Assembly (NCBI RefSeq): GCF_900696045.1
Contig: NZ_LR216287.1
Span: forward strand, 372,001-436,000
DNA from: Candidatus Nitrosocosmicus franklandus
GTDB lineage: Archaea; Thermoproteota; Nitrososphaeria; Nitrososphaerales; Nitrososphaeraceae
Direction: 5' to 3'
DNA length: 64,000 nt
Shown: positions 1 to 45,101 of the stretch, in pieces
Layout of the letters: every line of letters starts with the position of its first letter
How positions within the stretch are numbered: position 1 is the stretch's first letter
Notes under the pieces: generated by a model
Databases searched by the model: none
Told to the model about the DNA's origin: nothing
What the model saw: only the letters and a program-made list of their open reading frames with translations
Position numbers and translations under genes: made by a program

Positions 1-1668
1 ATTCTGCTGCCAACGTATCTATTTGTTTTATGACCGGTAAAATACCAAGCTTGTTTCGCAATTCTCTTACTTGATCTTCACTTAGACTCCAACAGCGACC
101 TATCTGCTTGTCAGAAAAACCTAGCTTTTTTACCTCTTTTAGTAACCCTATATTCAGGTTGGCTTTCTTAAGCTGTTCTTCCTTGTCAACTATATTCTTG
201 ATTTTCATTAAAAACCAAGGATCGATTGACGAAAGATTGCTTATGTGTTCTATACTCATGCCGAATTTAATGGCTCTAACAACGTTGAAAATAATTTCAT
301 CATCAGGATGGATTAGAGAGTACTCAATTTTTTCTATTACAGAAGGATCAATGTGATCAGTTACGTCATCCGACTTTCTTTTCCTTAGATAAAATTCATT
401 TTCATCTTCTAGATTACACACTAATCCATCTTTACCAATCTCACACATTCTTATCGCTTTCTGGATAACTTCTTCAAAGTTCTTTCCAATCGCCATAACC
501 TCACCAACAGATTTCATTGCACTACCGAGCTTCCTTTTCACAAGTTCGAATTTTTTGAAATCCCAACGAGGCATTTTGACCACCATGTAATCTAATGCAG
601 GTTCAAAACAAGCTGAAGTAACTTTGGTTATCTTATTGACCAATTCGGGTAAAGTATAACCAAGGCCTATCTTAGCAGCCATATATGCAAGCGGGTAACC
701 TGTAGCCTTACTAGCCAATGCAGAAGACCTAGATAATCTTGCATTGATTTCTATAGCACAGTATTCTTCGGATTTAGGGTTTAAACCAAACTGGATATTG
801 CACTCACCATTTATCCCGCAATAAGAAGTTGCCCTTAAAGCCGCATCCCTTAACATATGGTATTCATGGTTGTTTAAGGTCTGTGATGGAGCAACTACAA
901 TATTATCTCCCGTATGGACCTTCATGCCTAAAACATTCTCCATATTGCATACAATTACGCTGTTCCCTTGAGAATCTCTCATAACTTCGTATTCTATTTG
1001 TTTCCATTCGCCGACATATTTTTCGATTAGAACTTGATGAACCATGCTAAGGGACAAACCGCGATGCACTATCTCATGCAGATCAAATTCATTATAGGCT
1101 ACTCCGCCTCCTCGACCACCTAATGTGTAAGCAACCCGTATGATTACTGGAAAGCCAATCTGCTTAGATATTTGTAGTGCCTCTTCATATGTATATGCTG
1201 TAGCGCTATCTAGAACTGGAACGTTACTGTTGATCATTGCATCCTTAAATTTTTGCCTATCTTCGGTTATTTTGATTCCGTCGATTGAGGTATTAAGAAC
1301 ATTTACACCATACTTTCTCAATACATCGTTTTCATACAGGTCGACACCGCAGTTTAGCGCGGTTTGACCTCCGTAACTTAACATTATGGAATCAGGACGT
1401 TCATTCTCAATGACCTGTTCAACAAAATTCCTATTAATTGGTAACAAATACACCTTATCTGCAAACTTATTATCAGTTTGGATTGTAGCAATATTAGGAT
1501 TAATCAGGATACTTGTGATTCCTTCTTCCTTTAAGGCTTTGAGGCACTGAGACCCAGAGTAGTCAAAATTGCGGTTAGATAAATATTCTAACTCTCGCCT
1601 GCTTCTCCGATCTTTATAGCACCACTGCCTAACACAAGAACCTTATTTATAGTCCTGTTTCGAGGCAT
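1..1668 (-). CDS. carB: Carbamoyl-phosphate synthase large subunit, N-terminal half (partial, interrupted by a 26-nt putative BHB intron)
   Basis: CarB makes carbamoyl phosphate from ammonia delivered by CarA, bicarbonate and ATP, for pyrimidine and arginine synthesis. The gene starts at ATG 1668 (MPRNRTINKVLVLGSG) and runs off the left edge. The visible part covers the first (carboxyphosphate) ATP-grasp half, ending at ...IKQIDTLAAE, which matches about residue 545 of E. coli CarB. After codon 25 (GEAGE) the frame meets an in-frame TAG at 1590-1588. The conserved continuation FDYSGSQCLKALKEEG resumes at 1567 in another frame and stays open to the edge. Removing 1568-1593 restores GEAGEFDYSGSQ. 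It lies 65 nt downstream of carA on the same strand, so the two are probably one operon. The alternatives are a true frameshift or an assembly error, but the inserted 26 nt fold as a BHB element (see the intron entry). Confidence 0.9.
1568..1593 (-). other. Putative bulge-helix-bulge intron in carB mRNA (26 nt)
   Basis: Read on the minus strand, GTTAGA (1592-1587) pairs perfectly with TCTAAC (1579-1574) across a 7-nt loop. Below it lies a 3-nt bulge AGA (1595-1593), then a central helix GGCG (1599-1596) against CGCA (1573-1570) with three G-C pairs and one G-A, then a 3-nt bulge ATT (1569-1567). Archaeal splicing endonuclease cuts after the second bulge nucleotide, here 1594/1593 and 1568/1567. 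The joined exons read GAG-TTT, which gives the conserved EFDYSG of CarB. The outer helix is weak, so this is a relaxed BHB. The intron contains an in-frame stop, so unspliced RNA would give only a 26-residue peptide. Confidence 0.7.
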
Positions 1669-1733: not shown

Positions 1734-2882
1734 TTATGAAATAACCTTTTCGGTTTTTTTCACTAATTCTTTGAACTTTTCGAAAACATACAAGCAATCA
1801 TCCGGACCAGGTGAGGCCTCGGGATGGAATTGTACCGCAATGATAGGCTTGCTTCTATGTTTTATTCCTTCAACAGTATTGTCATCAATATTCTTAAACC
1901 AGACTTCGAATTCGGTATCCAACAAGCTATTAGATTCCACACCATAGCCATGATTTTGGCTGGTAATAAGGGTAATTTTTGAATCCAAGTCTAAGCAACT
2001 TTTATTCTGTCCTCGGTGTCCAAATTTCAGTTTGTGAGTTTTCGCTCCACCGGCTAATGCAAGAATTTGGTTTCCTAAGCAAATCCCCAACGTAGGAATT
2101 GATTTTTCTATTACCTTGGACGCAGTTGTTATAGTTTCATTGCACAAAATTGGATCCCCTGGCCCATTACTAATTACAACACCAACAGGATCATATGACA
2201 AAATTTCGTTTATAGTAGAGTCCCATGGAAGGCGAACTACATTGAATCCTAATTTGAGCAAATTTCTTATTATACTATATTTTGTTCCAGTGTCTATTAG
2301 CACAATTTTGGAATTATTATCATTTTTGTTACCATAATATCTTGGCTCCGAAATCGATACTTCAGGCATAAAATTGCATGAATCATAATCAAATTTATCC
2401 AGTAATGATGATGAAGACCCATCCATTATCAATTTGCCGCTCATAACCCCATGGGAGCGAATTTTTTTAGTCAATTCTCGTGTATCTATATTCGTAATTC
2501 CAGGAATTCGTTCCTCGTACATCCATTGATCCAAAGTTCTTGTGCAGGTCCAATGGCTTGACACGGTTGACAAATTATTGACAATTATACCGCTAGTCTG
2601 AATCCTGTCGGATTCAAAATACTTTGGTAAACCATATTCGTCCAAATTGTCCATAGATGGGACTCCATAATTACCAATTGAAGGATACGTAAAACAAAGG
2701 ATTTGTCCTTTGTATGAAGGATCTGTCATTGTTTCCGTATAACCTACCATACCAGTGTTAAATACAATTTCTCCAGACACGTTAATCGGATAACCGAACC
2801 CTATCCCCTCAAAAACCGTCCCATCTTGTAGAACTAATTCTGCCTTAGTTTCTATTGGTTTACTAAAGAGTGTTGGAATAAT
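1734..2882 (-). CDS. carA: Carbamoyl-phosphate synthase small (glutaminase) subunit
   Basis: CarA is the class I glutamine amidotransferase subunit that hydrolyses glutamine and passes ammonia to CarB. The N-terminal domain (VFNTGMVGYTETMTDPSY) is followed by the amidotransferase domain, with nucleophile Cys in GICLGNQILA and the His/Glu pair in VQFHPEAS. The first conventional start codon is GTG at 2780 (348 residues). However, the frame upstream clearly encodes the conserved CarA N-terminus (AELVLQDGTVFEG, compare ALLVLEDGTQFHG in E. coli). It stays open only back to a stop at 2885-2883, with no ATG, GTG or TTG. Translation therefore probably starts at ATT 2882 or 2879, or at an internal ATA, giving about 382 residues, the usual family length. 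carB follows downstream. Confidence 0.93.
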   Translation of the reverse strand: MIPTLFSKPIETKAELVLQDGTVFEGIGFGYPINVSGEIVFNTGMVGYTETMTDPSYKGQILCFTYPSIGNYGVPSMDNLDEYGLPKYFESDRIQTSGIIVNNLSTVSSHWTCTRTLDQWMYEERIPGITNIDTRELTKKIRSHGVMSGKLIMDGSSSSLLDKFDYDSCNFMPEVSISEPRYYGNKNDNNSKIVLIDTGTKYSIIRNLLKLGFNVVRLPWDSTINEILSYDPVGVVISNGPGDPILCNETITTASKVIEKSIPTLGICLGNQILALAGGAKTHKLKFGHRGQNKSCLDLDSKITLITSQNHGYGVESNSLLDTEFEVWFKNIDDNTVEGIKHRSKPIIAVQFHPEASPGPDDCLYVFEKFKELVKKTEKVIS

Positions 2883-4220: not shown

Positions 4221-4228
4221 CTTATTTG

Positions 4229-5500
4229 ATGCTAAAACTTATGCGAAATAAACTAATCAAGATTAGTTTGATCTTAATTGTAATAACAACTATCCTGTTT
4301 TCTCAAAATTATATGAGTCAAAATTCCTTTGCACAAACTAATCAGAGTTCAATAGACGGGATTCTTTCTTGTGATTTCGTACAATTTTGTTCAAATCCAG
4401 TTCAAGTAACTAGAAATTCTCTTGAGTCAACTATCGTAACATCACCCACAGAAACCTCAGATTCAACTCAAGCTGTCTCTGAAGATGAGAATCAAGCTGT
4501 ATCTGAGTCACCAGAAGTAATCCCTGACGTAACTTCCAATATTTCGCTAATTATGACTCCCGACTTGCCTAGTAATTTTGCAACAGATAACCTCGGTGAC
4601 TCTGCAGACCCCTCACTACAGAATCCTAATAATACAATAGATGGCATCGTAGATGATGCCAACACAACTAGTTTGAATACAACCACAGATAATACCACAA
4701 TAATTACACCGTCTTCAAGTAACATATCTCAGCAATTAGAGGAAGACATTATAACACTTCAAGATGGTTTAGAAGATAACAATACAGCTGGCTTGAATGG
4801 TAATAGCACTACAACTGATTTGCTTTCTCCTACAAATGTAACGTCCCAAGGTACGATGAATGTCAATTCTGAACTTGGTGTTGCAAACGAGACAATTGAT
4901 ACAACTGCTGCAAACGAGACAATTGATACAACTGCTGCAAACGAGACAATTGATACAACTGCTGCAAACGAGACAATTGATACAACTGCTGCAAACGAGA
5001 CAATTGATACAACTGCTGCAAACGAGACAATTGATACAACTGCTGCAAACGAGACAATTGATACAACTGCTGCAAACGAGACAATTGATACAACTGCTGC
5101 AAACGAGACAATTGATACAACTGCTGCAAACGAGACAATTGATACAACTGCTGCAAACGAGACAATTGATACAACTGCTGCAAACGAGACAATTGATACA
5201 ACTGCTGCAAACGAGACAATTGATACAACTGCTGCAAACGAGACAATTGATACAACTGCTGCAAACGAGACAATTGATACAACTGCTGCAAACGAGACAA
5301 TTGATACAACTGCTGCAAACGAGACAATTGATACAACTGCTGCAAACGAGACAATTGCGGGTCAAACCCAAGGAACAGTTCAACAAGACAACAATATTCC
5401 TACATCTTCTTCAGATACTGAGACCGAAAACCCTCCTTCTCCAACTGCATTTCTAGACCCAATTATCAATCCATTTAAGGAATTCTTTGGAATAAACTAA
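4229..5500 (+). CDS. Secreted Asn/Thr-rich protein with 17 perfect nonapeptide repeats
   Basis: An N-terminal signal peptide (basic MRNKLIK, then a hydrophobic stretch ending near NSFAQ) leads into a Ser/Thr/Asn-rich, acidic region. This is followed by 17 identical copies of ANETIDTTA and a partial eighteenth (ANETI). The C-terminal tail (about 65 residues) ends in PIINPFKEFFGIN. Each repeat contains the N-x-T sequon NET, so the array could carry dense N-glycosylation. There is no enzymatic domain, and I do not recognise a family. ATG 4229 and ATG 4241 are both possible starts; the TATA position favours 4241 and leaderless translation. A TTG at 4226 is less likely. A surface or cell-wall stalk is plausible, but this is inference. 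Confidence 0.8.
   Translation: MLKLMRNKLIKISLILIVITTILFSQNYMSQNSFAQTNQSSIDGILSCDFVQFCSNPVQVTRNSLESTIVTSPTETSDSTQAVSEDENQAVSESPEVIPDVTSNISLIMTPDLPSNFATDNLGDSADPSLQNPNNTIDGIVDDANTTSLNTTTDNTTIITPSSSNISQQLEEDIITLQDGLEDNNTAGLNGNSTTTDLLSPTNVTSQGTMNVNSELGVANETIDTTAANETIDTTAANETIDTTAANETIDTTAANETIDTTAANETIDTTAANETIDTTAANETIDTTAANETIDTTAANETIDTTAANETIDTTAANETIDTTAANETIDTTAANETIDTTAANETIDTTAANETIDTTAANETIDTTAANETIAGQTQGTVQQDNNIPTSSSDTETENPPSPTAFLDPIINPFKEFFGIN
4883..5356 (+). repeat. 27-bp tandem repeat, 17 full copies plus 15 bp
   Basis: The unit begins GCAAACGAGACAATTGATAC and is repeated with no visible substitution from 4883 to 5341, followed by 15 bp of an eighteenth unit. It is in phase with the reading frame (9 codons). 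Identity also at synonymous positions points to recent expansion or ongoing homogenisation by slippage or unequal recombination. The repeat lacks stops in several frames on both strands, which creates long spurious ORFs. Confidence 0.97.
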
Positions 5501-44405: not shown

Positions 44406-45101
44406 GTGGCTGTTGGCACTGATTTATGTGTTATGCCCATCGTCAAACCAGAGGTTCCAGATGAATCTGAGGAGAACCAAGCATTTAGTAACCTGGAGAG
44501 AATTGAAGCAAGTGAAAACCTCTCGGATCAAAATTTTGCTGCAGAGGCAAATTACATATCTAAGAAAGGGAAAATTATTATTCAAGAACCAAGGGACCAA
44601 GATCAACTCAGAAACAAAGGCTTTGGGGAAAACTTCAACAAAGAATACCTGCTTAGCTACCTAGAAGCATTATTTTTATTACAAAGTAACAAATTGAGGG
44701 TGTCAGATAAAACCCAGGATTATGATTTCTCTGAATTTTTAAAAGTACTTGTTAAAAAGGATAAAAAACTACTTACGAAATACCTTATATATCGGGATCT
44801 AAGGAGCAAAGGCTATGTTGTGAAAGATGGGTTTGGATTTGGAACTGATTTCAGAATTTATGAAAGGGGCGAATTTAATAAAAAAACTTCGAAATACGTT
44901 GCGGTTGGATTGAACGAAGGTACCACGATTAACGCCTCTTCATTTGCTAACATGGTAGATGAAGTGGAAAAAATGGGTAAAAATGCTGTCATAGCTGTGG
45001 TGGAGAGAAGAGGAGAAGTTATTTACTATAAAGCATCAAAGATGAATTTCTCAGAGAATAAGAGAGTTAGGAAGAAGGATACGGAATCTACATTTACATA
45101 A
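44406..45101 (+). CDS. endA: tRNA-splicing endonuclease subunit (EndA family)
   Basis: Cuts BHB motifs in tRNA and other RNAs. The N-terminal domain (to about 135) precedes the catalytic domain, which has the signature GYVVKDGFGFGTDFRIYERG. By position, Tyr152 and Lys192 (MGKNAVIAVVE) match catalytic Tyr and Lys. Where homologues have His in HSKY, this protein has Thr161 (TSKY), so the usual general acid is missing. It may be a subunit of a heteromeric enzyme or use another residue. The start is GTG 44406 or ATG 44433. It could process the carB and tRNA-Glu introns in this window. Confidence 0.88.
   Translation: MAVGTDLCVMPIVKPEVPDESEENQAFSNLERIEASENLSDQNFAAEANYISKKGKIIIQEPRDQDQLRNKGFGENFNKEYLLSYLEALFLLQSNKLRVSDKTQDYDFSEFLKVLVKKDKKLLTKYLIYRDLRSKGYVVKDGFGFGTDFRIYERGEFNKKTSKYVAVGLNEGTTINASSFANMVDEVEKMGKNAVIAVVERRGEVIYYKASKMNFSENKRVRKKDTESTFT

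Follow-up and report, generated by a model that had tools for sequence, protein, structure and literature searches.

The carB locus and its interruption

The window analysed here is a stretch of 64,000 nucleotides from 'Candidatus Nitrosocosmicus franklandus', probably strain C13, for which a 2.84 Mb genome sequenced by MiSeq and MinION has been published (PMC6776761). The carB gene, encoding the large subunit of carbamoyl-phosphate synthase, is found at the left window edge, on the minus strand and downstream of carA. CarB is needed for making pyrimidines and arginine. The features of the locus are as follows.

1734 to 2780, minus strand: carA, carbamoyl-phosphate synthase small subunit, upstream of carB (TIGR01368, E 8.8e-125, above cut-off)
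1594 to 1668, minus strand: carB exon 1, ATG plus 24 codons, MPRNRTINKVLVLGSGAIKIGEAGE
1568 to 1593, minus strand: putative bulge-helix-bulge (BHB) intron, 26 nt, phase 0, AGTTAGAATATTTATCTAACCGCAAT; shifts the frame and has an in-frame TAG stop
1 to 1567, minus strand: carB exon 2, beginning FDYSGSQ (TIGR01369 CPSaseII_lrg, E 1.4e-196), open past the window edge
1574 to 1592, minus strand: intron hairpin, 1592-1587 (GTTAGA) with 1579-1574 (TCTAAC), 7-nt loop; the stem covaries
1570 to 1599, minus strand: BHB central helix, exon 1 GGCG (1599-1596) with intron CGCA (1573-1570), one G.A mismatch
1593 to 1595, minus strand: 5' bulge, A G/A with the last A on the intron side; predicted EndA cut between 1594 and 1593
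1567 to 1569, minus strand: 3' bulge, A T/T; predicted EndA cut between 1568 and 1567
1555 to 1609, minus strand: outer exon-exon helix, 1609-1605 (CGGAG) with 1559-1555 (CTCTG), 1603-1602 (AG) with 1562-1561 (CT), and 1601-1600 (CA) with 1565-1564 (TG)

The true start of carA is probably further upstream than 2780. The carB frame starts with the ATG at 1668 and runs through 25 codons down to 1594, ending in GGC GAG. Reading on from there gives AGT TAG, and FDYSGSQ picks up in a different frame, the first base of exon 2 being 1567 (TTT GAC TAC). The sequence-only reading had claimed a 26-nt break after codon 25 with an in-frame stop, with which both the coordinates and the sequence agree. A second intact carB, which would have refuted that reading, was sought in the complete genome (a single contig of 2,836,447 bases), and no second complete copy was found.

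The geometry of the insert is likewise observed. The 6-bp hairpin has the positions given to it in the sequence-only reading, which had also named two weak points, a G-A in the central helix and a minimal outer helix. The former is indeed present here, leaving three of the four central pairs, although most relatives have G-C or G-U there. The latter does not hold: relatives preserve an outer helix of 8-9 pairs between the exons, containing a single bulged A and a single A.A mismatch. Taken alone, the window sequence provides only moderate evidence beyond chance. Its fold has a z-score of -1.83, 9 of 200 shuffled sequences folded as well, and the same BHB geometry arose by chance in 1240 of 2,000,000 random 26-mers. 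The insert had no match in Rfam and thus no known RNA family. A group I or group II self-splicing intron was rejected, since these need a catalytic core of hundreds of nucleotides and the inserts at this site are 20-40 nt long without an Rfam match.

Same-site inserts, covariation and codon usage

A protein search for carB was carried out in 70 genomes of the family (Nitrososphaeraceae). Most matches start at residue 18-26 or contain a stop. The phase-0 site is interrupted in every carB of the family with a readable junction except that of G029, and inserts at the same site are present in many Nitrosopumilaceae and in other families of the order Nitrososphaerales. A covariance model (R1) was run on 300 genomes of the order. 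At a cut-off of E<=1e-9 it matched in about 164 of them, including the genome studied here (G000:C1:373550-373615, E 6.8e-21). Another 36 weaker matches (E 1e-7 to 0.01) were left out of the count because a pattern search showed several of them (G152, G168, G170) to be contiguous genes. The alignment of carB from related genomes, which had been proposed as a check on the original claim, thus places an insert at the identical site in most of them, and this genome is not alone in having the interruption. One assembly (G048) contained two carB 5' regions, on contigs C45 and C151, one of them at a contig edge; this is probably strain variation or bin redundancy.

A first set of junctions comprised 59 distinct interrupted ones (58 from Nitrososphaerales, 1 from Micrarchaeota). 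Over all fetched loci, the distinct junctions number 72 and the distinct inserts 70; the latter are 20-40 nt long and distribute over the three modulo-3 length classes as 22/25/23. An in-frame stop is present in the 22 junctions that do not shift the frame (the remaining 50 do), so no insert can be translated through. All 72 share one BHB plan with two three-nucleotide bulges and a central helix of 3 or 4 out of 4 pairs: exon 1 GGCG, the bulge A R/W, the hairpin, intron CGCN pairing with GGCG, and the bulge A N/T. With the cut marked by a slash, the 5' bulge is AA/A, AG/A or AA/T and the 3' bulge AA/T, AT/T or AG/T in 72 of 72 cases each. Cutting both bulges behind their second nucleotide would restore GEAGE/FDYSGSQ in frame (AE/FDYSG, giving AEFDYSG, in Micrarchaeota).

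Covariation was analysed in two sets of sequences. In the first, comprising 43 sequences whose alignment took no account of structure, 96.0% of cells were paired and 42 cells showed a double change, compared to 15.0 in shuffles (0 of 500 reaching this value). When partners were slid by 1-3 columns as a control, pairing fell to 18-48%. The second set of 20 other sequences, all outside the family by group code except L049 (record named Nitrosopumilaceae), was 92.5% paired with 20 double-change cells, compared to 5.4 in shuffles (0 of 500). Hairpin arms fit their own partner better than swapped arms of other introns (0 of 10000 permutations). The covariation sits in the hairpin; most exon pairs vary one-sidedly (G-C/G-U).

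The exons carry a constraint of their own. At protein-invariant residues, synonymous codon entropy is 0.50-0.54 of the maximum at the junction and 0.90 in the rest of carB, and the lowest-entropy stretches of the gene fall at the junction. The exon 1 residues KVLVLGSGAIKIGEAGE are conserved among relatives, and synonymous sites beyond the pairing region vary. The first junction glycine codon is GGA in 57 of 59 intron-bearing genes and 2 of 27 intronless ones; for the second, GGC is used in 58 of 59 and 3 of 27, respectively. Outer exon-exon pairs are kept at a mean of 8.54 out of 9 with the intron and 6.96 out of 9 without it. The p value of this codon and pair contrast (about 1e-10) is a guide only, as related species are not independent. 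Where the intron has been lost, the junction codons are free, and the constraint makes little sense if the BHB fold is dispensable. Although it comes from sequences alone, we regard the comparative evidence as decisive for the carB insert being a BHB structure.

Splicing enzymes and competing explanations

Two PF01974 (EndA-type) proteins are encoded in the genome, one of them within the window:

44406 to 45101, plus strand: EndA-type splicing endonuclease subunit, family match, with TSKYVAV at the histidine stretch

This protein is probably the structural (beta) subunit, a prediction based on TSKYVAV replacing the expected active-site histidine stretch. A catalytic-type subunit lies outside the window, at G000 2765534-2765779. 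Of the two PF01974 proteins, L120 can be aligned over its full length with solved subunits of the catalytic type, and it has retained their tyrosine, histidine and lysine stretch (YIHGPGIDHAPYLV...TVKKQFVLAIV), which we take to be the EndA active-site residues. An RtcB ligase is encoded as well. The presence of these enzymes is observed; to our knowledge, EndA and RtcB would be expected in any archaeon, which weakens them as evidence. Two-subunit endonucleases are described as tolerating relaxed BHB motifs outside tRNA (PMC2738675, PMC7714728).

Frame-breaking inserts in otherwise intact genes are frequently due to assembly or sequencing artefacts or to decay into a pseudogene, the 26 nt being an error or a disabling mutation. 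An assembly error, which would have overturned the original claim, can be dismissed, as scores of independent assemblies, drawn from several families, have an interruption at this site. The affected gene is moreover the sole carB, both of its exons are conserved as protein and the inserts covary. The comparative data have already refuted this explanation, and we see virtually no chance that it holds. Alternatively, CarB could be made in two pieces, exon 1 yielding a leader peptide of its own (MPRNRTINKVLVLGSGAIKIGEAGES) and exon 2 being translated independently. Exon 1 read to the stop would indeed yield 26 residues, and it could conceivably act as a regulatory uORF. However, the exon 2 frame has no ATG, GTG or TTG from its upstream stop to window position 1453, so that separate initiation would cost the conserved FDYSGSQ motif. 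Exon 1 also encodes the conserved start of the large subunit, and the exons are fused directly in intronless relatives. Separate translation of exon 2 was rejected for want of a start codon before 1453 and is exceedingly unlikely.

The mRNA might also retain the 26 nt and the ribosome hop or shift over them. T4 gene 60 and the mitochondrial byps are bypass elements with a hairpin after the take-off codon and a close stop, and the carB insert, with its hairpin after a potential take-off codon and its nearby stop, resembles them. Bypassing, however, needs matching take-off and landing codons. The take-off codon would be GAR, and the inserts end in CAA, CAT, AAA, TAA, TAT, CAG, AAT or AAG, never in GAR. 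No single frameshift would suffice either, because the lengths fall into all three modulo-3 classes and most inserts contain stops. Neither process accounts for the conservation of intron-exon and exon-exon pairing with BHB cut geometry. Bypassing and frameshifting were both rejected on the missing GAR landing triplet and the spread of lengths over every modulo-3 class, and we consider them very improbable.

BHB splicing of carB, as claimed in the sequence-only reading, is supported by the same-site inserts, the covariation of the stem, the exon codons and the presence of EndA subunits and RtcB. We put the probability that the insert is a genuine BHB intron of the mRNA, with EndA making the cuts and RtcB sealing the exons, at about 0.94; in the absence of RNA or protein data, cutting, joining and the identity of the enzyme are all inferred. 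In the transcript, GGCG of exon 1 and CGCN at the intron's 3' end would make up the central helix, with the intron hairpin on one side of it and the exon-exon pairing on the other. The tRNA-splicing endonuclease, a hetero-oligomer of catalytic alpha and structural beta subunits, is predicted to cut after the second nucleotide of each bulge. RtcB would then ligate GAG to TTT, giving GEAGEFDYSGSQ, and the intron would be released. A tryptic peptide of the spliced product would span IGEAGEFDYSGSQ.

Relation to known introns and evolutionary history

A BHB intron in the cbf5 pre-mRNA was reportedly described by Watanabe in 2002. According to Yokobori 2009, cbf5 was the only archaeal protein-coding gene with confirmed splicing, other mRNA introns, in Sulfolobus and a virus, being merely predicted (PMC2738675). 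A study from 2020 knew of cbf5 and of no further mRNA case besides its own 5' UTR intron (PMC7714728). We found no literature report of a carB intron, of BHB introns in this group or of later mRNA introns, subscription journals not being covered. The carB intron is thus apparently unreported, and it would belong to the cbf5-type class.

The cbf5 intron of Desulfurococcales and Sulfolobales (PMC2738675) and the carB intron are both short and without an ORF (16-44 nt and 20-40 nt, respectively). They share BHB-like borders with the cut, predicted in carB, between bulge residues 2 and 3, a hetero-oligomeric endonuclease, and a pattern of old gain and several losses. In contrast to cbf5, carB encodes a central metabolic enzyme. 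Its intron occurs in Nitrososphaerales and two Micrarchaeota and has phase 0, whereas that of cbf5 lies between codon positions 1 and 2, and splicing has been demonstrated for cbf5 only. The 5' UTR intron of HVO_1309 in Haloferax volcanii is also a BHB intron in an mRNA, and it is processed by EndA (PMC7714728). It is untranslated and the protein is independent of splicing, whereas CarB would depend on it. A 31-nt intron circle was missed in that study, possibly for its size (PMC7714728). Archaeal tRNA and rRNA introns have the same motif and the same predicted enzymes. The carB intron differs from these in residing in a protein-coding message without tRNA context, with exon codons constrained for pairing. 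If splicing is confirmed, carB would be a second such archaeal gene, one that serves an essential pathway and whose intron is conserved in most ammonia-oxidising archaea. Splicing of mRNA would then be a standing feature of an abundant archaeal lineage, and carB would probably be mis-annotated in many genomes.

Contiguous carB genes were found in 75 of 250 genomes of the class, many of them in genus code g44, which comprises intronless and intron-bearing members. Such close pairs within one genus, being cultivable, make retention and loss of the intron testable. On a tree of 81 exon-2 proteins, intron state requires 7 changes, compared to 23 in shuffles. Change counts alone cannot separate gain from loss, but our reading is that the intron was gained long ago, was present early in the order Nitrososphaerales, was inherited mostly vertically and was lost several times. 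A pattern search of 250 phylum genomes outside the order gave three matches, all of them contiguous genes, and no intron. Two Micrarchaeota, G300 (L084) and G306 (L176), have inserts of 32 and 29 nt, respectively, at the identical carB site. Both follow the common BHB plan, and their stem shows a compensatory change. No insert is present in the Micrarchaeota G301, whose exon 2 is 92% identical to that of G300, and G305. In their exon 1 codons, G300 and G306 look more alike than G300 and its relative G301. This distribution could stem from independent gain, transfer or loss.

Gating of CarB synthesis by splicing might be the reason for the intron's persistence. The amount of translatable carB message would then depend on folding or on EndA/RtcB capacity, tying pyrimidine and arginine synthesis to tRNA processing. 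Retention in most genera, and same-site introns in two Micrarchaeota whose nearest relatives have none, would be due to selection or to repeated gain at a favoured site, not to drift. Such gating is neither supported nor refuted by the data so far, and we hold this view to be unlikely.

Mid-CarB insertions were seen in genus codes g4, g5 and g12 (e.g. L112, L113, L115), at about query residues 411-430; in G067, 249 nt lie between the matched segments. As these are in frame and read as protein sequence, a second intron was rejected. Elsewhere in the window, the ORF at 4226-5500 on the plus strand contains 17.6 perfect copies of a 27-nt repeat (4882-5357, 100% matches), which translates as (ANETIDTTA)n. 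The protein is putatively secreted, and the lack of any divergence among the copies suggests a recent expansion.
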